DNA of 10,305 bases from Chloroflexota bacterium (GTDB lineage Bacteria; Chloroflexota; Ktedonobacteria; Ktedonobacterales; Ktedonobacteraceae). Positions 122-9,459 of this stretch are shown in pieces. The DNA is taken from the NCBI GenBank assembly GCA_005881995.1, contig VBHV01000114.1, positions 1 through 10,305 on the forward strand. Reading direction: 5' to 3'. Each line of letters opens with the position of its first letter. The first letter of the stretch is position 1. Position numbers and translations under genes: made by a program. Below the pieces are notes generated by a model. It had not been told where the DNA came from. It made no database searches and was given only the letters and a program-made list of their open reading frames with translations.

Positions 122-364
122 CTACGACCCATGATGAATAGCGTATTCAATCTCAACCTGGTGGTCATAATAATAACTAAGCGCGTCATAGACCTGTGCA
201 AGGGTGAGACGATGAATACTGGCGATTTCTTCGGGGTCTTTGCCAGATTGAAAGAGCAGGATGATATGACGCACACCTGTACGAGTTCCTTCAACAATCG
301 GCTCTCCACCATAGATAGCGGTATCACGAATAATATAGGGATGCGCGGTGCGTTCAATGCTCAT
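122..364 (-). CDS. DUF433 family protein (antitoxin-like)
   Basis: An 80-residue protein of the DUF433 family, small winged-helix-like proteins often paired with PIN-type toxins and therefore regarded as possible antitoxins. The family signature is visible: a start like 'HPYIIRD', then 'GGEPIVEGTR', then an 'EIASIHRLTLAQVYDALSYY' stretch that looks like the helix-turn-helix part. Upstream in-frame ATGs exist at 385 and 370. I chose 364 because the run AAGAAAGGG lies about 9 nt before it, while the promoter at 394-422 would put the RNA start almost on the 385 ATG. No PIN or DUF5615 partner is visible in the 121 nt downstream, so it is either an orphan or its partner lies beyond the window. Family assignment is fairly sure; an antitoxin role is inference only. 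Confidence 0.85.
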   Translation of the reverse strand: MSIERTAHPYIIRDTAIYGGEPIVEGTRTGVRHIILLFQSGKDPEEIASIHRLTLAQVYDALSYYYDHQVEIEYAIHHGS

Positions 365-393
365 CGTCATAGACCCTTTCTTCATCTATGTGT

Positions 394-422
394 AGTGTAA
401 TCGCAAATTTTCAGATCGTCAA
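394..422 (-). promoter_or_regulatory. sigma-70-type promoter of the DUF433 gene
   Basis: On the minus strand, TTGACG (422-417) and TACACT (399-394) are separated by exactly 17 nt. RNA would start near 387, about 23 nt before the chosen ATG at 364. Seen by eye; matches are 5/6 and 4/6 to consensus. Confidence 0.6.
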
Positions 423-585
423 TGGGAATTTTGTTTTCCGAAGAGATCGAGACATTTCATTGTTTACTTGCCAATTCACGAAATATTCACAATAAGGCAG
501 AACTGTGAAATCGCGTCATCAAGCTTCAGAGGCTGCTTTAAGCATAGTAGTGACGGTTGAGTCTAAACGAATTTTCATCAAAAGC

Positions 586-617
586 TTGACAACGGGACAA
601 ATGCAAGGTATTATAAT
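586..617 (+). promoter_or_regulatory. strong sigma-70-type promoter of the small transcript
   Basis: A perfect -35 TTGACA (586-591) is followed at 17 nt by TATTAT (609-614) and, overlapping, at 20 nt by TATAAT (612-617). Either -10 would start RNA at about 621-624, immediately before the ribosome binding site of the 24-codon ORF. Confidence 0.65.
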
Positions 618-641
618 CGCAACGAAAGGAGGTGGTGTGTA

Positions 642-716
642 ATGGACCAACGTAGTCGCTGCACAGGCAGCGTGGTAGTTTCCCACACCTTCCAGATGAG
701 AGGTGACCGGCGCTAG
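642..716 (+). CDS. 24-residue small ORF with near-ideal Shine-Dalgarno
   Basis: ATG at 642, TAG at 714-716. The peptide begins MDQRSRCTGSVVVSH and ends QMRGDRR; it is basic, has one Cys, and has no membrane segment or recognisable motif. The reason to take it seriously is its initiation site: GAAAGGAGGTG ends 7 nt before the ATG, matches the expected 16S rRNA tail over 11 nt, and puts the AGGAGG core at the ideal 9-nt distance. A strong promoter and terminator flank it. It could be a leader peptide, a small functional peptide, or a non-coding RNA that happens to carry an SD-like stretch. Function unknown. Confidence 0.45.
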   Translation: MDQRSRCTGSVVVSHTFQMRGDRR

Positions 717-769
717 CCGGTTAATCATCGCTGGTAGGTGCATTTAATAATCCCTACCTGTGCGGCGTT

Positions 770-816
770 CCCCAGAGCGATGGCGATCATAGACCTGCCG
801 TTGCTCTGGGGTTTTT
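770..816 (+). terminator. intrinsic terminator of the small transcript
   Basis: Stem 770-784 pairs with 797-811 (outer CCCCAGAGC with GCTCTGGGG, inner pairs including two wobbles), with a 12-nt loop and then TTTTT at 812-816. Confidence 0.85.
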
Positions 817-984
817 ATCCACAGTATCGCACTTACTCAGTCTGTCTGTTTTTCACCGCGTCGGCGGGTTAATGCCTATCTCTATACTACCGGCAAAACC
901 ACCTGGGCCAATCTTCTAATCGGGCCTATTTAAGACAGATTGGTTCACTTCTTCTAAATACCGATTCTCTAATTTGAGATAAGA

Positions 985-1839
985 ATGGATAGTATGTTAC
1001 GGAGCGCGCTCGATATCGAAGCGCTTGCGCGTCACCTGGATACTCAGTATTTTGGTTGTGGAGATCGGTTACTGTATTTACCAACAGTGAACTCGACAAA
1101 CACGTTGGCAATGCAACTGGCCCAAGAGCGGCCAGAAGAAGGGTTGGTGGTACTTACTGATAATCAAACTGCCGGAAAGGGCAGGCAGGGCCGTCGTTGG
1201 GTAGATGTGCCGGGATGCAATGTGCTTTCATCCATAGTGCTCCTGCCAGGGTTTCCGCCGCATTTGCTTGTCATGATCGCCTCGCTCGCTGTCGTTGACG
1301 CAATCGCCGCAACCTGTTCGGTGACGGCAACTATCAAATGGCCTAATGATGTTCTTATCGGAGATCACAAAGTTGCTGGCATTTTGATTGAGACCAGCCA
1401 TGATCTTACAGGGCGCCTGATAGCCGTCATCGGTATCGGTATCAATGTCAACGGGCGTATTGAGGAGGTAACTGAGCACCTGGCGGAACAAGCTCCCTTT
1501 GTCGCCCGTGCAACAACACTTGAGACGGTCTGTGGGCATACCGTTCAACGCGAAGCATTGATTGCCCACCTGTTGCAGCGTATCGAAAAAGACTATCTCG
1601 CGCTACAACAAGAGGCCGCAGGTGATCTGCCGGGAACAACACCTGCCTCTCGGTTGATTCGAGAGCAATGGCGAGGCCAACTATCAACTCTAGGACGCGC
1701 TATTACAGTGCGTCAGGGGAAATCAATAATCAGCGGGGTTGCTGAAGACGTGGATGGCAACGGAGAGCTGTTACTCCGGCGCCATTCAGGTGAATTAGTG
1801 AACATTACCTGGGGGAGCGTGGAGTATCCTGCCGGGTAA
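985..1839 (+). CDS. birA: biotin--[acetyl-CoA-carboxylase] ligase (monofunctional BirA)
   Basis: This 284-residue enzyme activates biotin with ATP to biotinyl-AMP and transfers it to the lysine of biotin carboxyl carrier domains in the cytosol. Visible motifs: 'STNTLAM' near 37-43, the adenylate loop GKGRQGRRW at 64-72, KWPNDV at 118-123 and K129 in 'HKVAGILIE', which corresponds to the biotin-binding lysine of the family. The C-terminal ~55 residues ('REQWRGQLSTLGRAITV...GSVEY') form the usual SH3-like cap. The N-terminal helix-turn-helix of E. coli-type BirA is absent (the catalytic domain begins within ~30 residues), so it should be a ligase without repressor function. Start is uncertain between ATG 985 and ATG 994; neither has a clear ribosome binding site. 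A weak promoter (TTCACT at 944, TCTAAT at 968) is possible. greA follows after 80 nt. Confidence 0.93.
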   Translation: MDSMLRSALDIEALARHLDTQYFGCGDRLLYLPTVNSTNTLAMQLAQERPEEGLVVLTDNQTAGKGRQGRRWVDVPGCNVLSSIVLLPGFPPHLLVMIASLAVVDAIAATCSVTATIKWPNDVLIGDHKVAGILIETSHDLTGRLIAVIGIGINVNGRIEEVTEHLAEQAPFVARATTLETVCGHTVQREALIAHLLQRIEKDYLALQQEAAGDLPGTTPASRLIREQWRGQLSTLGRAITVRQGKSIISGVAEDVDGNGELLLRRHSGELVNITWGSVEYPAG

Positions 1840-1841
1840 AC

Positions 1842-1861
1842 ACCTATCGATTAAGATAGGT
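1842..1861 (+). other. short hairpin in the birA-greA gap
   Basis: ACCTATC (1842-1848) pairs with GATAGGT (1855-1861) around a 6-nt loop, just after the birA stop. No T-run follows, so it is not a classical terminator. A further copy of ACCTATC lies at about 1894-1900. It may be a processing or attenuating hairpin between two co-transcribed genes; role unknown. Confidence 0.35.
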
Positions 1862-1919
1862 AAGGTTATGGAAGCCTGGTAGGATAAAGGAACCTATCAG
1901 ACAAAGAAGGGAAGCAGAG

Positions 1920-2378
1920 ATGGAAACACAATTCCTGACGGACGACGGACGACAACGCGCACTTACTCAGCTGGAGTTTCTGCGTACAGTCAAGCGCGCC
2001 GAGGTTGCCCAGTACCTTCATGAGGCGAAGGAATCGGGGGATGTCATCGATAATGCCGCCTATGAAGACGCAAAGAACGAGCAAGCACGCCTCGAAGGGC
2101 GTATTTTGGAACTGGAGCGGTTGCTTGCAACGGCCAAGCCCATTAGCAAGCTACTGACCGACGAGGTTTCTCTGGGTTCTATTGCGCACCTGCGCACTCC
2201 TGATGCACGAGAGTACCACTATACCATCGTTGGCGCATTTGAAGCTAAACCGACGGCAGGACTGATCTCCAATGAGTCTCCGGTGGGTAAAGCGCTGCTG
2301 GGCCACAAGGTAGGCGATCTGGTGATTGTCTCTACGCCTGGCGGTGTGAAAGAATATACCATCTACGAGATCGAGTAA
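1920..2378 (+). CDS. greA: transcription elongation factor GreA
   Basis: A 152-residue GreA, close to the usual length. It binds the secondary channel of RNA polymerase and stimulates cleavage of backtracked RNA, rescuing arrested complexes. Residues 1-75 form the antiparallel coiled coil; residues ~80-152 form the FKBP-like domain, with the family-typical 'LISNESPVGKALLGHKVGD' and 'TPGGVKEYTIYEIE'. At the coil tip the sequence is GDVIDNAAYEDAKNEQ: D41 is kept, but the second acidic residue, usually E44, is D44 here, with Asn-Ala-x-Tyr following as in the family. A purine-rich site (GAAGGGAAG) precedes the ATG by about 6 nt. It lies 80 nt after birA, probably in the same transcript or with a weak promoter of its own, and ends at a strong terminator. 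Identity is firm. Confidence 0.96.
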   Translation: METQFLTDDGRQRALTQLEFLRTVKRAEVAQYLHEAKESGDVIDNAAYEDAKNEQARLEGRILELERLLATAKPISKLLTDEVSLGSIAHLRTPDAREYHYTIVGAFEAKPTAGLISNESPVGKALLGHKVGDLVIVSTPGGVKEYTIYEIE

Positions 2379-2407
2379 CCCTTCCCAGGCAGTAACAGCA
2401 ACCAATC

Positions 2408-2442
2408 GACCTGTGGCTTTGAGAGGCCACAGGTCTTTTTTT
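2408..2442 (+). terminator. intrinsic terminator after greA
   Basis: A perfect 10-bp stem, GACCTGTGGC (2408-2417) with GCCACAGGTC (2426-2435), has an 8-nt loop and is followed by seven T (2436-2442). It closes the birA-greA unit and separates it from lysS. Confidence 0.93.
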
Positions 2443-2460
2443 GTGTGCGCTAATAAAGCG

Positions 2461-2490
2461 ATGACAAAAGCGAGAAAACGATGTTACAAT
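2461..2490 (+). promoter_or_regulatory. lysS promoter with extended -10
   Basis: ATGACA (2461-2466; 5/6 to the -35 consensus), an 18-nt spacer, then TGTTACAAT (2482-2490), an extended -10 of the TGnTATAAT type. RNA would start near 2497, about 29 nt before the lysS ATG. Confidence 0.6.
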
Positions 2491-2525
2491 GGTTTGCACA
2501 AATTTGTAGAAGAAAGAGGCACTTT

Positions 2526-4004
2526 ATGACAGACGAACGAGCCGTGCGTTTACAACGGCTGCATATATTACGCGAAAAGGGCATCAACCCCTATCCCAAC
2601 CGTGTGGAGCGCACCCACACCATCACCGAGGTCCTGCAACACTTTGACGAATCGCAGGGAGAAACAGGCGACTACATACTGACCGGGCGAATTCGCCTTC
2701 TGCGTGAAATGGGCAGGGCAGCCTTTGCCCAGATCGAAGATGGCACGGGGCGTATCCAGGTCTACTTCCGCATCAACGATCTTGGGGAAGAGGCGTACAA
2801 GACCGTCAAGCTGCTCGATCTTGGTGACTTTATACAGGTACGCGGCTTTCTTTTCAGGACGCGTACGGGAGAGCCTACTCTACACGCTCGAGCGTTTCAC
2901 ATACTCGCAAAGGGGCTGCGTCCCCTGCCGGAGAAGTATCACGGACTGGAAGATGTAGAGACTCGCCAGCGCAAGCGCTACCTGGACTTGATCGCCAATG
3001 GAGACGAGGCGCGCAACATCTTCATGATTCGCAGCCGCACTATCAGCGCCATGCGCCGTTACCTGGACGAACACGGCTTCATCGAAGTCGAGACGCCCAT
3101 CCTGCAACCGCTCTATGGAGGCGCAACCGCACGCCCATTTATCACGCATCATAATACGCTTGACCGCGATTTCTACCTGCGTATCGCGGTTGAACTCTAC
3201 CTCAAGCGTTTGATCGTGGGCGGGTTTGAACGGGTCTACGAAATTGGGCGTGATTTCCGCAATGAGGGCATAGACCGCACCCACAATCCCGAATTTACGA
3301 TGATGGAGTGCTATCAAGCCTACGCCGATTACAACGACATTATGGTGTTGGTCGAGGAAATGGTCAGTTTTATTGCCCAGCAGGTGAAAGGCTCGCCACG
3401 CATCACCTACCAGGGGACCGAGATTGATCTGACCCCTCCCTGGCCACGTATCCGCTTGCTGGATGCCATCGCAGAGTTTACCGGCATCGATGTTGAGCGT
3501 TTCCCTGACAAGGAGAGCCTCGCGGCTGAGATGCGCGCCCACGGCTACGAAGCCGATCCAAAGCTCGGTCGTGGTCGCCTGATCGATGATCTCAAGGGCG
3601 CGATGTTCCGCAAGGGCATTCCTGCGCTGAAGCAGGCCTTGTTCCTGACGGATTACCCTATCGATGTCTCGCCCCTGGCGAAGCAGCATACCGAGGTACC
3701 GGGGCTGACGGACCGCTTCCAGCCCTTTGTGGGTGGCCTGGAACTCGGCAACGCTTTCACGGAGTTGAACGACCCGCTCGATCAACGCGCCCGCTTTGAA
3801 GACCAGATGCGCCAGCGCACCCAGGGCGATGAAGAAGCCCAGGTACTCGACGAAGATTTCCTGGAGGCGCTTGAAATTGGCATGCCACCCACCGGCGGCC
3901 TGGGCATCGGTGTTGATCGCCTGGTAATGCTGATGGCCGATCAAGAGTCTATCCGCGATGTGATCCTCTTCCCGGCGATGCGCAAGACGGCGGAAGAACA
4001 GTAA
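2526..4004 (+). CDS. lysS: lysyl-tRNA synthetase, class II
   Basis: A 492-residue class II LysRS, normal length. It charges tRNA-Lys with lysine using ATP. The N-terminal OB fold, which binds the anticodon, covers roughly residues 45-140 ('ILTGRIRLLREMGRAAFAQI' onward). The catalytic domain follows, with motif 2 'GRDFRNEGIDRTHNPEF' (arginine at 245) and motif 3 'GGLGIGVDRLVMLM' (arginine at 465). The ELGNAFTELNDP stretch is the lysine/ATP pocket typical of this enzyme. An in-frame ATG exists at 2481, but that codon lies within the likely -10 region. ATG 2526 has AGAAAGAGG about 7 nt upstream and gives the family N-terminus, so I chose it. The frame stays open for 45 more codons after the TAA (see 4005-4142). 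The MOSC gene follows after 159 nt with no terminator between. Confidence 0.97.
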   Translation: MTDERAVRLQRLHILREKGINPYPNRVERTHTITEVLQHFDESQGETGDYILTGRIRLLREMGRAAFAQIEDGTGRIQVYFRINDLGEEAYKTVKLLDLGDFIQVRGFLFRTRTGEPTLHARAFHILAKGLRPLPEKYHGLEDVETRQRKRYLDLIANGDEARNIFMIRSRTISAMRRYLDEHGFIEVETPILQPLYGGATARPFITHHNTLDRDFYLRIAVELYLKRLIVGGFERVYEIGRDFRNEGIDRTHNPEFTMMECYQAYADYNDIMVLVEEMVSFIAQQVKGSPRITYQGTEIDLTPPWPRIRLLDAIAEFTGIDVERFPDKESLAAEMRAHGYEADPKLGRGRLIDDLKGAMFRKGIPALKQALFLTDYPIDVSPLAKQHTEVPGLTDRFQPFVGGLELGNAFTELNDPLDQRARFEDQMRQRTQGDEEAQVLDEDFLEALEIGMPPTGGLGIGVDRLVMLMADQESIRDVILFPAMRKTAEEQ

Positions 4005-4142
4005 GCGGAGGCAACGAACCGCTTCGCCGAGCAACTGCTTCCGCCAGAGCAGGGAAAAGTGGCCCTGGAGGATGCGCTGCTGATCCTGAATCGGCAATTC
4101 GACGCACAGGAACGTTTACACTGGCAAGTAACTGCCCCTTAA
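4005..4142 (+). other. coding-like tail in frame after the lysS stop
   Basis: Directly after the lysS TAA the same frame continues for 45 sense codons to a TAA at 4140-4142. The translation looks like real protein (it begins AEATNRFAEQLLPPEQ and has a predicted amphipathic stretch 'ALEDALLILNRQFDAQ'), with GAG, CTG and CAG codons as in the neighbours. There is no ATG; the only plausible internal start is GTG at 4059. It could be a former C-terminal extension cut off by a nonsense mutation, a remnant of a lost gene, a stop read-through tail, or chance. LysRS itself ends normally at the TAA, so the tail is not needed for function. Confidence 0.3.
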
Positions 4143-4163
4143 AGTGGGACACAGGAGCATTAG

Positions 4164-4733
4164 ATGAAGAAGAAACTAACGGGCATTGTTACCCATGTTA
4201 TGGTTGGAAACGATAAACGCACGCTCGAAACTTATAGAGTACCCAGGGTGCAGGTTACGTTCGAGGGATTTGTGGGAGACCAGCACGCGGGCTTAACGCG
4301 CTTATCAGATGTGCGAGTGCCGCATTATCCACGCAGAACCATCATCCGCAATACGCGCCAGGTTTCCATGCTCTCTCTGGAGGAGATGGCGGATATCGCG
4401 GCGGCGCTGCAATTGCCCGAAGTCCTGCCCCAGTGGTTAGGGGGAAATCTAGCGTTTCAGGGCATACCAGATTTAACGATGCTTCCGCCCTCGACGCGCA
4501 TCTTTTTTCCTGACGATGCAGTGATTGTGGTCGATGTTGAAAATATGCCTTGCACCGGGCCTGGTGAATTAATTCAACTGAAGTATCCGGATATTCCTAA
4601 GCAGGTGCAGTCTTTCCCGAAAGCTGCGATGCATAAACGCGGGCTGGTGGGGTGGGTGGAACGACCTGGATACATCAACGAAGGCGATGAGGTCTGGCTG
4701 TTGCTGCCGACGCCTGTTACCTACAGCTACTGA
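4164..4733 (+). CDS. stand-alone MOSC domain protein
   Basis: A 189-residue single-domain protein of the MOSC superfamily, the fold at the C-terminus of molybdenum cofactor sulfurases and in YiiM/YuaD-type proteins. Members handle sulfur or molybdopterin cofactor, and some detoxify N-hydroxylated bases, through a conserved cysteine. The early motif 'GFVGDQHAGLTR', the mid 'WLGGNLAFQGI' and 'ENMPCTGPGELI' with the conserved Cys at residue 130 all fit. AGGAG sits 6 nt before the ATG. No signal peptide or membrane segment is visible. It lies 159 nt after lysS with no terminator between, and the next feature is the independently promoted split tRNA, so it probably rides on the lysS transcript. 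Family is firm; substrate cannot be told from sequence. Confidence 0.88.
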   Translation: MKKKLTGIVTHVMVGNDKRTLETYRVPRVQVTFEGFVGDQHAGLTRLSDVRVPHYPRRTIIRNTRQVSMLSLEEMADIAAALQLPEVLPQWLGGNLAFQGIPDLTMLPPSTRIFFPDDAVIVVDVENMPCTGPGELIQLKYPDIPKQVQSFPKAAMHKRGLVGWVERPGYINEGDEVWLLLPTPVTYSY

Positions 4734-4749
4734 GAACGCCCAAAAATGC

Positions 4750-4778
4750 TTGACAATAGCCCATGCTAATGCTATAGT
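4750..4778 (+). promoter_or_regulatory. strong tRNA-Val / intron promoter
   Basis: TTGACA (4750-4755), exactly 17 nt, TATAGT (4773-4778). RNA would begin near 4785, about 9 nt before the mature tRNA 5' end. The same transcript must include the group II intron and its maturase. Confidence 0.82.
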
Positions 4779-5046
4779 TGCTCTTGTCAGCAAGGGCGCT
4801 TAGCTCAGTGGGAGAGCGCTTCGTTCACACGTGCGCCGTATGAGGCGTGCAGTTCGCAGTCACGACAGAACGTGATACCACTGGTGTCAAAAGTGGATAA
4901 AGCGGCGACTTACCTAGAGGGGAAACCCAAAGGGGACAATAGCATGTCGCTACAAAGGCGGAAAGGCATAGGTACCTAATCCTTGTCCGTCAGCTAAGCT
5001 GTATATGGTTAAGCCTGCATTGGTTGAACCCCATCCGAGCGATCTA

Positions 5047-5052
5047 GCGAAG
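5047..5052 (+). other. EBS2 candidate of the group II intron
   Basis: GCGAAG can pair with CTTCGT (4819-4824), the 5' strand of the tRNA anticodon stem plus U32, with one G-U wobble. It lies 217-222 nt into the intron, before EBS1, the order seen in group IIA introns. Confidence 0.65.
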
Positions 5053-5103
5053 GTTCTACGCCATCACGGTACTATAGGGCGTATGCGACGTTTCGGTACA
5101 AAC

Positions 5104-5110
5104 GGTGTGA
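5104..5110 (+). other. EBS1 and delta candidate of the group II intron
   Basis: GTGTGA (5105-5110) is a perfect complement of the last six exon bases TCACAC (4825-4830). The preceding G5104 could be delta, pairing with C7975, the first base of the 3' exon. The surrounding sequence resembles the EBS1 arm of LtrB as I recall it. An overlapping second partial match, GTGTG at 5111-5115, is the alternative. Confidence 0.7.
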
Positions 5111-5422
5111 GTGTGCCGAAAGACACCACGTCGCAGCGATGCCGCATTGGGCGGTAACCGGAGAGTGGGGAACCTAAGTACAGCGCGAGCGAATTGCATG
5201 AGACTACGGGATCACCTAACCCGCGAGAGCGGTACGGTGACAGAGCACCCATAGTACCTAGTAGGAACGCCTATACAAAGCGGGACGAAAGGGAAGGGGT
5301 GTAGAAGGTACCACCGCCGGTCTATCAAGGTTGCGATGGATGTCGCACAAGACCAAGGGTAGACTGTCGGCTAGGAAGCCCTAGCGACTGTAGGTTTGTA
5401 AGGAGGGATTTGTAGAGCGTTA

Positions 5423-5452
5423 GTCAGAAACATCAGGAGGAACAATTCTGAC
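5423..5452 (+). other. DIVa-like hairpin with an SD sequence in its loop
   Basis: GTCAGAA (5423-5429) pairs with TTCTGAC (5446-5452); the loop contains AGGAGG (5435-5440) with no usable start codon after it. In LtrB, a domain IV hairpin near the maturase start binds LtrA and represses its own translation; this may be the counterpart. The real SD of the maturase, AGGAG at 5466-5470, lies just downstream. Confidence 0.4.
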
Positions 5453-5476
5453 GTAGAAGATCAATAGGAGACCCAC

Positions 5477-7468
5477 ATGCAGGATGCGGGTAACTTGAAA
5501 TGTCTGGAAAGATTAGAAGTTATCCGTAAGCTCAACGGCGAAAACCGTGAGTGGGTTAACGACGATCTTTACAGACTGATGCTCAGGAAGGACATGTATG
5601 TCCTGGCGTATGAGCGTCTGAAATCCATACCAGGGAACATGACCCCTGGAACGGACGACGAAACGCTAGACGGGTTCTCTGAGGAAGAAATCGACAAGAT
5701 CATCGAACAGATGAGAAACGAGAGCTACCGATGTAAGCCCGTTCGTGAGTCGTTCATCCCAAAGGCAAATGGGAAACTCAGGAGATTGGGTATACCCTGC
5801 CCCAGGGACAAGATTGTACAGGAGGTAGTGCGAATAATCCTGGAGGCGGTCTACGACTCGCCTCACGGCGCGTACTTCTCCGATTGCAGTCACGGTTTCA
5901 GGCGTTCCAAATCCTGTCACAGTGCGGTGAGGGAAATCCAGAAAAAGTGGTCAGGCATGATCTGGCTCATAGAGGGCGATATAAAGTCCTGCTTCGACGA
6001 CATTGACCACCACAAGCTGGTCGATGTCCTGAGAAAGAAGATCAAAGATGAACGGTTTCTATCGCTCATCTGGAAATTCTTAAAGGTGGGATACCTAGAC
6101 CTCGAACGAGCAAGGCATGACTCACTGGCTGGAACCCCACAGGGAGGCATAGCAAGCCCAATACTCAGCAACATCTATCTGAACGAGCTTGACGAATTCG
6201 TGGAGCAAATACGGATAGATCTAGAGCAAGGCAAGGAACGCAGACCCAATCTTGAGTACAAACGTATTGAAGCCCGACGGTACAAGCTGGCGAAAGCTGG
6301 TAAGGCCGACACCAGGGAGTTCAAGAGGTTGGGAAAGCAAATGCGGAGTCTCCCATCGCTGGACACACACGACCCGAACTTTGTCAGAGTTAGGTATGTG
6401 CGCTACGCCGACGACTGGCTAATCGGGGTGATCGGAAGTCATGAACTGGCGAGGGAAATCAAAGACAGGGTTGGTGAGTTCCTAAAGAACGAATTAGCCC
6501 TGACTCTAAGCCAAGAGAAGACCAAAATCACCAACGCCAGAACGGAAGAAGCCGAGTTCTTGGGGTACAGAATTCGGAAGGGCAGAGGAAGGGACACCCA
6601 AAAGGTCACGGTATCCACTAACGGCTCTGGAAGGCTGTTCAAACGACGGTCAACCGGAATGGAAGTGGTACTCAAAGCCCCAATGGACAAGCTGATAAAA
6701 CGGCTCAGTCAAAAGGGTTTCTGTGACGGAAAGGGAAACCCAAAGCACAAAGCAGGGTGGACGGTGTTAGACGAAGACCAAATAGTGAGCTTGTATTCCT
6801 CTATCAACAGAGGGATACAGGAATACTACAGGCCGACCGATAACTGGCCCGAACTTCAAAGAGTGCAGTACATACTGAAATACTCTCTGGCTAAAACTCT
6901 GGCGTTGAAGAAGAAAACTTCGATTACCAGGGTGATGAGAGGGAGGGACATTAGTGTCCAGGTCACAACCAAAAAGGGACAGGTCAGAAACATAGTGTTC
7001 TACAGAAACACGGACTGGACGGTAAAACGGGATGCCTTCAAGGACAGCCCCGAAGTCGATCTAGTCGCGATGAACGTGAGGCTGAGGACACGAAGCAAGC
7101 TAGGACTACCGTGTATGGTGTGTGGCAACCCGAACAAGGTTCAAATGCACCATGTACGGCATATCAGGAAAATGGACGATAAAGAGCCAAAGGGCTTCAC
7201 AAGAGTCATGGCGGCACTAAATCGTAAACAGGTCCCGGTATGTAAAGCGTGTCACGAGAGGATACACAGGGGAGAGTACGACAGCTTAAGCCTTAAAGAA
7301 CTGGCGTATGACTTGCGGAAGATCAGAATAACATCTGGTCTACCAATAGAAGCGCTAGACAAACCGGAAAGAGACTCCAGGAAGAGAGCCGATGCAGTGG
7401 GCGTCAGCCCTGAGCAGGAGCTCAAAGCATTCTACTTGGAGTTGATGACCAAAAAGGCACCAGCCTAG
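5477..7468 (+). CDS. ltrA: group II intron reverse transcriptase / maturase / HNH endonuclease
   Basis: A 663-residue LtrA-like protein that binds its intron RNA, aids splicing, and with the lariat copies the intron into DNA sites. RT domain: roughly residues 60-370, with 'DGFSEEEIDKII', IPKANGKLRRLGIP, the first catalytic aspartate D168 in 'EGDIKSCFDDID', TPQGG at 220-224 and YADD at 310-313 (D312, D313). The maturase (X) domain follows, about 380-530. The C-terminal HNH nuclease has C546/C549, H558-H559, C589/C592 and H593/H597, matching the zinc-ribbon and catalytic layout of LtrA. All key residues are present, so it looks active. AGGAG sits 6 nt before the ATG. About 65 residues follow the last HNH motif, longer than LtrA, with no recognised domain. 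It has no promoter of its own that I can see; the tRNA promoter probably drives it. Confidence 0.96.
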   Translation: MQDAGNLKCLERLEVIRKLNGENREWVNDDLYRLMLRKDMYVLAYERLKSIPGNMTPGTDDETLDGFSEEEIDKIIEQMRNESYRCKPVRESFIPKANGKLRRLGIPCPRDKIVQEVVRIILEAVYDSPHGAYFSDCSHGFRRSKSCHSAVREIQKKWSGMIWLIEGDIKSCFDDIDHHKLVDVLRKKIKDERFLSLIWKFLKVGYLDLERARHDSLAGTPQGGIASPILSNIYLNELDEFVEQIRIDLEQGKERRPNLEYKRIEARRYKLAKAGKADTREFKRLGKQMRSLPSLDTHDPNFVRVRYVRYADDWLIGVIGSHELAREIKDRVGEFLKNELALTLSQEKTKITNARTEEAEFLGYRIRKGRGRDTQKVTVSTNGSGRLFKRRSTGMEVVLKAPMDKLIKRLSQKGFCDGKGNPKHKAGWTVLDEDQIVSLYSSINRGIQEYYRPTDNWPELQRVQYILKYSLAKTLALKKKTSITRVMRGRDISVQVTTKKGQVRNIVFYRNTDWTVKRDAFKDSPEVDLVAMNVRLRTRSKLGLPCMVCGNPNKVQMHHVRHIRKMDDKEPKGFTRVMAALNRKQVPVCKACHERIHRGEYDSLSLKELAYDLRKIRITSGLPIEALDKPERDSRKRADAVGVSPEQELKAFYLELMTKKAPA

Positions 7469-7880
7469 ACCAACCTTGTAATGTCCAAGAGGGTAGACCT
7501 AGTACCTGAACAACCGAATACAACGACGCACCAGTAGACTCAAAGGACCTTGTCTGTCGCTGGGTTTACTCGCCGGAGGTCATACCTACGGAAACGCAGG
7601 GACTACTGGAAAAGCGCGAAGTTGTGTGTATGCGGCTACGCAAACTGCAAGCTGTGAGGATAGTATCCCACCGACGATCTAGCCCATCGTCATCTAAATC
7701 ACAGGTAGCAGGGGTAAAGCGCAGTCACGGCAGTCCGAAGAACTCCCCGCAAGGGTTGAAGGGCAAGAGTAAGACTCCATACAACGACGCGAAGCGTTGA
7801 GGTATGGAGTTGTTTTCTTGATCTCGACTTCTTATTAGGAAACCTGTAGTCATTAAGGCTTCCTAGTGGGTACCTTTGGA
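7469..7880 (+). other. long 3' part of intron domain IV
   Basis: About 410 nt without a gene lie between the maturase stop and domain V, longer than in LtrB. A strong hairpin is present: ACTCCATAC (7774-7782) with GTATGGAGT (7802-7810), an inner AACG/CGTT pair (7783-7786 with 7795-7798), followed by a T-rich run (TTTTCTT from 7813). I see no second domain V, no coding motif and no clear internal intron. Confidence 0.5.
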
Positions 7881-7914
7881 GAGCCGTGTGCTATGAAAGT
7901 AGCCCGCACGGTTC
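7881..7914 (+). other. group II intron domain V
   Basis: 34 nt fold as the catalytic hairpin: a 10-bp lower stem (7881-7890 with 7905-7914), a 2-nt bulge CC (7903-7904), a 4-bp upper stem (CTAT with GTAG) and a GAAA tetraloop (7895-7898). The catalytic AGC triad is at 7882-7884. Confidence 0.95.
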
Positions 7915-7917
7915 GGA

Positions 7918-7971
7918 GGGGGGCGGCTGGAGACGTGCCTTAGAAACAGGTAACGCGCCGACCGCCTACCC
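7918..7971 (+). other. group II intron domain VI with branch-point A
   Basis: The strand 7918-7926 (GGGGGGCGG) pairs with 7962-7971 (CCGCCTACCC), leaving A7968 bulged. This A is the seventh base from the intron 3' end, the usual place of the branch-point adenosine that attacks the 5' splice site. The upper part of the stem is less clear. Confidence 0.85.
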
Positions 7972-8034
7972 TATCGAAGAGGCCACTGGTTCGAGCCCAG
8001 TAGCGCCCACTCGTACAAGGTTCACTCTTTTCCC

Positions 8035-8076
8035 CGGATGAAACCGCCCATTGTTCGCTTGACTATCCGCTTTTTT
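8035..8076 (+). terminator. possible weak terminator of the tRNA transcript
   Basis: CGGAT (8035-8039) can pair with ATCCG (8065-8069), followed by C and six T (8071-8076). The loop is 25 nt and the stem short, so this is weak, and it overlaps the pcm promoter candidate. No better tRNA terminator is visible. Confidence 0.25.
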
Positions 8077-8087
8077 CCCACTACACT
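8059..8087 (+). promoter_or_regulatory. candidate pcm promoter
   Basis: TTGACT (8059-8064), 17 nt, TACACT (8082-8087). RNA would start near 8094, leaving a ~100-nt leader before pcm in which no known riboswitch is apparent. Confidence 0.5.
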
Positions 8088-8195
8088 GTGAAGAAAGATG
8101 CCCCTTTTGTACTATGTCCCCTGTAGTTTTTTACATCTTTGCAAACATTGAAGCGAAAGAGAACCATTTCTCATTGAAGAGCGGAAGATGCTCAT

Positions 8196-8840
8196 ATGGC
8201 TTACGATTTTGAGGCAAAACGCCAGCAGTTACTCGAATCGCTCCGCACGACTACCATACATGATGAGCGTGTACTGGCTGCGATAGGCAGCACTCCTCGC
8301 GAAGCCTTTGTGGATCAGGCACACTATCCCCAGGCCTATGAAGATCGTGCCTTACCTATTCTTATGGGGCAAACTATCTCGCAGCCACTGATGGTTGCCA
8401 CTATGACGCAGGCCCTGCAACTGCGCGGGTCGGAGCGCGTTCTGGAAATTGGTACCGGTTCTGGCTACCAGGCAGCGGTACTGTCACAGCTGGCTGCGCA
8501 TGTCTACAGCGTCGAACGCATTCAGCAACTCGCCTGCATCGCTGCGAGGCGTATGTCAAAATTGGGGCGGCAAAACGTTACTATCTATGTCGGGGATGGC
8601 TCGTTAGGCTGGGAAGATGAAGCGCCATATGACCGCATCCTGGTGACGGCTGCAGCGCCTGAAGTGCCTGCGCACCTTTACGATCAGCTGGTAATATGGG
8701 GCATGATGGTGATCCCGGTTGGAAGACCTGATCACCAGGAGTTGTTAGTCGTGCATCGCGCGCCCTGGGGACCAGAAACGCGCTCGTTAGGTGGGTGTCT
8801 TTTCGTACCACTGGTGGGCGAGGAAGGTTGGCAGGTATGA
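8196..8840 (+). CDS. pcm: protein-L-isoaspartate O-methyltransferase
   Basis: A 214-residue Pcm, normal length. It methylates isoaspartyl residues in aged proteins with S-adenosylmethionine, allowing their repair to aspartate; cytosolic. The family signature 'AYEDRALPI...GQTISQPLMVATMTQAL' lies at ~48-77, where residues recognise the isoaspartyl carboxylate. SAM-binding motif I, VLEIGTGSGYQAAVL, starts at ~82, followed by 'VYSVERI', which supplies the acidic residue for SAM ribose, then 'VGDGSLGWEDEAPYDRILVTAA'. GCGGAAG precedes the ATG by about 8 nt; another ATG at 8188 is out of frame. It has its own promoter candidate, and the next gene has one too, so it is probably monocistronic. Confidence 0.95.
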   Translation: MAYDFEAKRQQLLESLRTTTIHDERVLAAIGSTPREAFVDQAHYPQAYEDRALPILMGQTISQPLMVATMTQALQLRGSERVLEIGTGSGYQAAVLSQLAAHVYSVERIQQLACIAARRMSKLGRQNVTIYVGDGSLGWEDEAPYDRILVTAAAPEVPAHLYDQLVIWGMMVIPVGRPDHQELLVVHRAPWGPETRSLGGCLFVPLVGEEGWQV

Positions 8841-8858
8841 ATCAATTTTCCTTTCGGG

Positions 8859-8886
8859 TTGTCGAATAGAGAAAATAGCATATAAT
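8859..8886 (+). promoter_or_regulatory. promoter of the membrane protein gene
   Basis: TTGTCG (8859-8864), 16 nt, perfect TATAAT (8881-8886). RNA would start near 8893, about 45 nt before the ATG at 8938. Confidence 0.6.
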
Positions 8887-8937
8887 ATAAAGAGAGCGCC
8901 TATCGTTGTGCGCTTCGGTAGAGCAAGGAGAATTGGC

Positions 8938-9459
8938 ATGCCGGGTATGCATAGCAGCGTTCACGTTACCAATATTCTGGGCCTGGTTGGTTTCCTGGTA
9001 CTATGGATTGGATTCTTTGAGTGCGCCAAATTACTCATCGCGCTGTTCAAGCACGATTCACTGATCGGATGGGCTATTGGCCCGCTCGGCGTCACCACAC
9101 TGTACCTCCGAGAACCCTCGACGCCGTTCATCCTTTTCAACGCCATTTTTCCTGCCGTCGTCTCTGGAAGTGTTCTCTACCTGGGACTATTCACGGCATT
9201 TCCCAGTCCTCTGGCCCTACCGCACTATCTCCTGGTAGAAATACTGATCGTTAGTGGCGGTGTGCTGCTGACCAGTACAGGGGATTTTATCAACGCGCTG
9301 CGTGACCTGCGCTATCCTTTATGGGGAGAAGCTCGTATTTTGCGCAGCATCCAATACCTACGCGCAAGCTGGGCTTCTATCCACTTTACTCCGTTCGGTG
9401 TATCGTACTTGCGTGACAAGTTCGACTCGAATCCGACCGATTTACTCCAGGCATTTTAA
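8938..9459 (+). CDS. unrecognised small integral membrane protein
   Basis: A 173-residue protein I do not recognise. Hydrophobic stretches suggest three or four membrane helices: about 12-35 (NILGLVGFLVLWIGFF...), possibly 43-58, 64-88 (FILFNAIFPAVVSGSVLYLG) and 95-116 (YLLVEILIVSGGVLLTSTG), followed by a polar, arginine-rich C-terminal tail of ~55 residues that probably lies in the cytosol. No catalytic motif is seen. The frame is open from 8791, but ATG 8938 has AGGAG 7 nt upstream and follows a TATAAT box at 8881-8886, so I chose it over upstream starts that overlap pcm. It ends 8 nt before the stop of the convergent kinase. Function unknown. Confidence 0.75.
   Translation: MPGMHSSVHVTNILGLVGFLVLWIGFFECAKLLIALFKHDSLIGWAIGPLGVTTLYLREPSTPFILFNAIFPAVVSGSVLYLGLFTAFPSPLALPHYLLVEILIVSGGVLLTSTGDFINALRDLRYPLWGEARILRSIQYLRASWASIHFTPFGVSYLRDKFDSNPTDLLQAF

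Follow-up and report, generated by a model that had tools for sequence, protein, structure and literature searches.

A protein-bearing group II intron at position 38/39 of a Chloroflexota tRNA-Val(CAC) gene and related introns at the same site in other tRNAs

Results

The split tRNA-Val(CAC) gene and its intron

The DNA analysed here, referred to throughout as the window, is a stretch of 10,305 nucleotides from a Chloroflexota bacterium (assembly GCA_005881995.1, contig VBHV01000114.1) in which a tRNA-Val(CAC) gene is split by a group II intron carrying its own protein. The gene, the parts of the intron and a promoter-like site upstream lie as follows.

4794..8009, + strand: tRNA-Val(CAC) gene, cut between tRNA positions 38 and 39
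4794..4830, + strand: 5' exon, up to anticodon-loop position 38 (ARAGORN on joined exons; intact gene in relatives)
4831..7974, + strand: group II intron, 3144 nt, ends GTGCG...AT (RF00029, boundary letters, fold)
5477..7468, + strand: intron-encoded protein (IEP), 663 aa, with reverse transcriptase (RT, YADD), maturase and HNH parts (open frame and domain matches)
7879..7914, + strand: domain V (RF00029; the fold of 7880-7915 has -19.6 kcal/mol, z -6.0)
7915..7974, + strand: domain VI with a single bulged A at 7968, a candidate branch point (fold z -3.3; RF00029)
7975..8009, + strand: 3' exon, from position 39 onward (ARAGORN on joined exons)
4750..4778, + strand: promoter-like TTGACA-17-TATAGT with TG ahead of the -10, 5' of the split tRNA (consensus scan, 11/12 matches)

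Joining the two exons in silico gave a single flawless tRNA-Val(CAC) cloverleaf in ARAGORN, and the same program reported no tRNA on the unspliced 10.3-kb window. The anticodon loop, TTCACAC, terminates at 4830, which places the insertion at 38/39. The original prediction, made from the letters of the window alone, had described a protein-bearing group II intron at this site and a perfect rejoined cloverleaf, and it was correct to the base. The sole Rfam match at gathering threshold was RF00029 at 7879-7974 (score 66.2 bits, cut-off 40; E 1.3e-11); a group I intron was rejected, as no group I family matched at that threshold. Several hallmarks of mobile group II introns are found together, namely domains V and VI with a bulged A, 5' GUGYG and 3' AY ends, exon-binding and delta pairing with the flanking exons, and an open RT/maturase frame with YADD. 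The intron ends, domain V, bulged A and full LtrA-like protein that had been predicted were all recovered, the protein as an uninterrupted frame matching RVT_1, Intron_maturas2 and an AI2M-like (AI2M/AI1M-like) HNH domain. Dead tRNA fragments were rejected as an explanation because the exons show no decay and the guide match described below is exact. As for the promoter-like site, 4700-8150 holds three such sites against a shuffle mean of 2.1, and alone it is no evidence of function.

Pairing of the intron guide with the exon junction

The intron-binding sites (IBS) in the 5' exon and the exon-binding sites (EBS) in the intron were located as follows.

4819..4824, + strand: IBS2, CTTCGT, mostly the 5' strand of the anticodon stem; pairs 6/6 with EBS2, one pair being G-U
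4825..4830, + strand: IBS1, TCACAC, in the anticodon loop; pairs 6/6 with EBS1
5047..5052, + strand: EBS2, GCGAAG, the best among several candidate stretches
5104..5110, + strand: delta (G5104) and EBS1 (GTGTGA), an exact 7-nt complement of the exon junction

The guide GGTGTGA complements the final six nucleotides of the 5' exon together with the nucleotide that opens the 3' exon (delta-delta' 1/1), and a 7/7 match occurs at one place only in the first 800 nt of the intron, at position 274. This match is well beyond chance, and it recurs in related introns with other guides. At the level of sequence, the pairing demonstrates a guide fitted to read this target.

Native locus and empty site

The gene order of the window matches that of Ktedonobacteria (Chloroflexota). 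LysS compared with plasmids gave 151 records, each under 60% identity and uninformative on taxonomy. Among the 120 protein relatives of the IEP listed, which include some at 90-96% identity, the only organism named is Ktedonobacteraceae (twice), and the closest IEPs in the genome collection are those of locus L001 (80% identical), from the Ktedonobacterales metagenome-assembled genome (MAG) clean319, and of L002 (77%), from the complete chromosome of Ktedonosporobacter rubrisoli (NZ_CP035758.1). From the title of the L002 record and general taxonomy, we take the class of these relatives, called the class below, to be Ktedonobacteria. In G023, a genome of the same class, the order is birA, greA, lysS, tRNA-Val(CAC), pcm and histidine kinase, with identities to the window of 84% for greA, 82% for lysS, 81% for the histidine kinase, 71% for pcm and 69% for birA. 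Its tRNA-Val(CAC) gene is intact, providing the empty site whose comparison the original prediction had envisaged. The matching gene order and the intact tRNA indicate that the intron sits in a native locus and that an empty site exists. The exons of the window differ by a single base from 9 of the 24 intact tRNA-Val(CAC) genes of the class. The MOSC gene of the window, between lysS and the tRNA, had no match in G023. Further downstream, a 222-aa open reading frame (ORF) at 8791-9459 overlaps the end of pcm; it gave no Pfam match at E 0.001 and by eye mostly resembles L086 7202-7723.

Related introns at the same position in other tRNAs

Sixteen group II introns at tRNA position 38/39, across five tRNAs, were identified by in-silico excision, a pattern search and reading of loci taken together. 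The excision was applied to fetched loci in two rounds and the split-tRNA pattern to 400 Chloroflexota genomes. All 16 introns match RF00029 at gathering threshold.

tRNA-Val(CAC): the window, L001, L002
tRNA-Arg(CCU): L060, L099
tRNA-Ile(CAU): L102-L109
tRNA-Leu(UAA): L003 (Pseudomonas sp. 10-1B), L118 (Pseudomonas sp. FeN3W megaplasmid, CP136011.1)
tRNA-Leu(UAG): L120 (Pseudomonas silesiensis plasmid, NZ_CP143488.1)

The pattern fits one type of D arm only, so that its counts are lower bounds. It gave a real match in 11 of the 47 class genomes (all within the 400), or in 12 with the genome of L001. Two of the 13 matched Chloroflexota genomes were judged false from the matched letters: L097, which resembles an intact tRNA stem and was the single match among the 353 Chloroflexota genomes outside the class, and L100, within the class, which is not tRNA-like. 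A reversed control pattern matched in 2/400 genomes. The 10 genomes of the fetched loci gave no match (0/10), Pseudomonas 10-1B included, to whose split tRNA-Leu the pattern is blind because of the different D arm, and a GTGCG form of the pattern gave none in 398 Pseudomonadota genomes. Across 298 genomes of the genus to which Pseudomonas 10-1B belongs, a pattern for split tRNA-Leu(UAA) matched once, in the 10-1B genome itself. Part of the L003 IEP, compared with 322 genomes of its order, matched twice (E <=1e-60), at L003 and at L122. In viral contigs seven RT loci were found, none above 40% identity, and the exact split junction gave no match; the Pseudomonas intron gave no megablast match in E. 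coli genomes.

Each of the 16 introns carries its 7-nt guide at intron position 214-313, and in 15 the guide is the exact reverse complement of the exon junction. The sixteenth is L001, whose host gene is decayed: its exon has changed by one base and the guide pairs with one G-U. Five guide types correspond to the five tRNAs, as expected of guides re-matched for each target. For the introns outside tRNA-Val no EBS2 could be assigned with confidence, and 6 of the 14 introns scored (L001 was left out) had no candidate.

In a tree of 36 IEP rows, a split with 96/99 support sets 12 rows apart from the other 24, and all seven tRNA-sited IEPs fall among the 12; the tree is rooted at the midpoint, and reference lineages and introns are not among its rows. 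An excision test at the Rfam 3' ends recovered the known cases 6/6 (window, L002, L003, L060, L118 and L120). It also took in 28 of the 29 tree loci without a tRNA site, L122 being left out for want of an RF00029 match, and rejoined no tRNA for the 24 rows across the split, nor for L058, L059, L061 and L119 on the tRNA-sited side. By eye, related introns outside tRNAs seem to lie in the loops of inverted repeats (L058 and L077 in G035, and L119 on a Cupriavidus necator plasmid; GGGGAT...ATCCCC and GTTGGGA...TCCCAAC), as if this group of introns preferred hairpin targets. Two further elements were seen in L058 (1328-1416 and 3650-3919), an extra RF00029 match inside the stretch and a HEARO RNA (RF02033, 112.8 bits) directly downstream of the intron. 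In L003 (5001-6835) the IEP is broken into frames of 96 and 502 aa; in the relative L118 it is one annotated coding sequence.

Intact tRNA genes accompanying the introns

An intact tRNA gene, here called a spare, lies in or next to six of the seven tRNA introns that encode an IEP; the window is the exception.

Spare tRNA-Val(CAC): L001, L002
Spare tRNA-Leu(UAA): L003, L118
Spare tRNA-Arg(CCU): L060
Spare tRNA-Leu(UAG): L120

The anticodon of the spare is that of the broken gene in 5/5 readable cases, representing four tRNAs; the broken gene of L001 is decayed. No intact tRNA was seen at the nine ORF-less loci. In L003, L060 and L118 the spare lies 5' of the IEP, in what we read as domain III; that of L120 is placed after the IEP and ahead of domain V, and those of L001 and L002 lie 72 nt from the (first) 3' end of the intron. 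The spares of L003 and L118 are identical at 72/85 positions, against 57/89 and 65/90 to their own host genes. Because they are closer to each other than to those genes, they were probably inherited together with the intron. The L120 region (317-5760) of the P. silesiensis plasmid holds nine intact tRNA genes, one of them the spare.

In L001 the split tRNA-Val of MAG clean319 is decayed in both exons (4229-4269 and 7352-7400) with an intact spare adjacent, which is likely the end state of a replacement. In L002 a second domain V/VI (7894-7994) follows the spare, then the true 3' exon, and of the two candidate 3' splice sites (7560 and 7994) only the second restores the tRNA. The two copies thus flank the spare (7466-7994), and by eye the second has no other intron parts; alternative splicing or a twintron-like origin is possible.

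The K. rubrisoli (L002) spare differs from the split gene at 4 of 72 bases, these being the two base pairs nearest the insertion site (CTTCG/CGAAG to CTTGC/GCAAG). The flipped stem breaks two of the six EBS2 pairs and the delta pair, and the spare of L001 carries the same flip. Among 24 intact tRNA-Val(CAC) genes in other class genomes, 22 have CTTCG/CGAAG, two have CTTCC/GGAAG (L038 in G027 and L043 in G034) and none is flipped; the CTTCC/GGAAG stem would likewise break the delta pair of the Val introns. In the L120 spare the delta pair alone is broken, and the spares of L003, L060 and L118 still fit delta and EBS1 (L060 with one G-U). Escape from the guide, as read from these pairings, is therefore seen only in L001 and L002, where both EBS2 and delta pairing are affected, and in L120, where the delta pair is the single one lost; in L003, L060 and L118 it would have to come from EBS2 or from protein contacts.

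ORF-less introns in tRNA-Ile(CAU)

Eight genomes have a tRNA-Ile(CAU) gene interrupted by a group II intron that is ORF-less and 544-754 nt long, and no intact tRNA-Ile(CAU) was found in any of the eight. The split gene is of the GGGCCCA... kind, which G002 and G029 have in intact form. Both other kinds of CAU tRNA are seen in six of the eight genomes (G003, G038-G041 and G043); G042 and G047, possibly incomplete genomes, are without one or both. Two of those genomes have their elongator tRNA-Met as a separate gene (GGCGGCG...), and by exclusion the split GGGCCCA... gene would be tRNA-Ile(CAU).

Bacterial ORF-less introns nearly always occur with a related IEP in the same genome, one exception being given in the accessible part of a review (PMC4424553). 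Six of the eight genomes (G038-G043) gave no RVT_1 match at E <=0.001 and no IEP-profile match, five of them being genomes with both other CAU tRNAs. With no RT found, splicing there would depend on the RNA unaided or on proteins of the host. Since no intact tRNA-Ile(CAU) was seen in the eight genomes and six show no RT domain, splicing at 38/39 very likely works in these bacteria, whose only tRNA-Ile(CAU) found is split.

Domain VI differs among these introns. L103-L108 share the 3' end GGCTTCAC, in which an unpaired GG replaces the bulged A; the fold was computed for L104 (2125-2200, z -3.1), the others sharing its 3' end. Hydrolytic splicing would be predicted for this group. L102 keeps the bulged A in a fold barely better than shuffles (z -1.3).

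Discussion

The window very probably contains a mobile group II retroelement, one of a set of related introns that have repeatedly homed to tRNA anticodon loops, and the split gene is very probably spliced to give tRNA-Val(CAC). In the mechanism we propose, delta and EBS1 would read the last six bases of the anticodon loop and the first base of the 3' stem strand, and EBS2 the 5' stem strand. The protein would then reverse-splice the intron into the gap between 38 and 39 and copy it. After transcription, probably from the tRNA promoter, the intron would fold with the protein serving as maturase, and the exons would join to form the tRNA. In protein-bearing relatives the intact tRNA in or beside the intron would probably cover for imperfect splicing, and in the Val family its altered anticodon stem is one that the guide should no longer match. 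Splicing and homing in the host of the window, like the rescue role of the spares, are what we infer from comparison of sequences.

A broader reading is reasonably likely, though held with less assurance. These related introns may be specialised on position 38/39, their protein-bearing members carrying a same-anticodon antidote tRNA that escapes the guide at least in the Val family; once the protein and any spare were lost, plastid-like introns capable of splicing only would result, some in genomes without a detectable RT.

Several observations weigh against our interpretation. The 7-nt guides of other families also occur within the first 400 nt of 5 of the 16 introns, although never at the EBS1 place. 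ARAGORN found no same-anticodon spare in the 10.3 kb of the window. The intact copies beside the introns of its two nearest relatives suggest that splicing alone may not suffice there. No match to the 5' half of tRNA-Val(CAC) (<=3 mismatches) was found in 21 of the 47 class genomes, and this tRNA may be dispensable; tRNA-Val(UAC) is presumably able in principle to read GUG.

The host of the window might have an intact, guide-resistant tRNA-Val(CAC) elsewhere in its genome that does the work, as the regular company of a spare, inside the intron or 72 nt past its first 3' end, would lead one to expect. We consider this unlikely, as the spares of relatives lie beside or inside the intron and the window has none, and 25 of the 26 class genomes that match the 5' half of the gene have a single match. 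The original prediction would have taken an intact copy as a sign that the split gene is a dead pseudogene. With an intact tRNA-Val(CAC) adjoining the intron in both closest relatives, such a copy looks like part of the system and not proof of a pseudogene.

It is also conceivable that the intron is real and the split gene a tolerated loss, with GUG read by tRNA-Val(UAC), poor splicing and nothing dependent on it. The class genomes without a match, and the decayed split copy beside an intact one in L001, would fit such a loss. We nevertheless hold it to be quite improbable: the exons of the window are undecayed although the IEPs of L001 and L002 are only 77-80% identical to its own, and in relatives a tRNA-Ile(CAU) split at this position is very likely spliced with success.

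The spares could, furthermore, be chance neighbours or structural inserts of the intron and not replacements, a view consistent with their three locations (before the IEP, between IEP and domain V, and 3' of domain VI) and with the one spare that lies among a plasmid tRNA array. There is little likelihood of this, given the matching anticodons across four tRNAs and the probable inheritance of the L003 and L118 spares with their introns. An assembly chimera or chance juxtaposition of tRNA halves can be dismissed, since a related intron is found at this site both in the complete K. rubrisoli chromosome and in an independent MAG (L001), and the guide match is exact.

One bacterial class thus displays, side by side, the empty site, a protein-bearing intron, an intron with a spare, a decayed split gene with a spare, and ORF-less introns in tRNA-Ile(CAU). 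With these states together, the passage from a mobile retroelement to an obligatory tRNA intron becomes testable in bacteria, some of them named strains. If our reading is true, retroelements would have a novel means of reducing their cost, namely an intron that supplies, in guide-resistant form, a copy of the gene it disrupts. In practical terms, tRNA gene callers can miss such genes, as ARAGORN did on the unspliced window.

Comparison with known systems

In the open-licence literature (subscription journals and preprints lay outside the search) we found no description of a group II intron accompanied by a matching spare tRNA. One precedent was found there for a group II intron that has an ORF and interrupts a bacterial tRNA gene: TeI4h, which lies in the tRNA-Ile(CAU) gene of Thermosynechococcus elongatus, present there as a single copy (Mohr, Ghanem and Lambowitz 2010, PMC2882425). 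The window is of the same type, an ORF-bearing intron in a bacterial tRNA gene whose exons rejoin, and such introns are rare. The original prediction had called the arrangement very unusual; its rarity stands, but a precedent exists. According to the accessible part of that account, TeI4h has good EBS/IBS pairing and is inferred to splice to a functional tRNA. It is assigned there to subclass IIB1; what sets it apart from the window intron is a protein of 561 aa, a YAGD motif and a 5' T, and the same part mentions no other tRNA site in the genome and no spare tRNA (PMC2882425). Ktedonobacter racemifer, of the same class as the relatives studied here, has introns whose proteins likewise combine RT, maturase and HNH parts; 34 RT genes were counted, and the accessible part of the report does not mention tRNA sites (PMC3236041).

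The group I introns of cyanobacterial tRNA-Leu(UAA) and Azoarcus tRNA-Ile likewise self-splice in bacterial anticodon arms, as described in part in PMC3984707. Their ribozyme is of another kind: at gathering threshold RF00029 was matched in the window, and group I families were not.

Organelles are the best-known setting for group II introns in essential tRNA genes, and plastid tRNAs carry theirs in or near the anticodon loop. The introns of plastid trnK/matK, trnI, trnA and trnV resemble the present one in this position, and ORF-less forms were found here in relatives. The parallel with organelles had been drawn in the original prediction and proved stronger than claimed there, with ORF-less group II introns in tRNA-Ile(CAU) of eight related genomes. 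Unlike the plastid cases, the host here is a bacterium, and the intron of the window retains a full RT and HNH protein.

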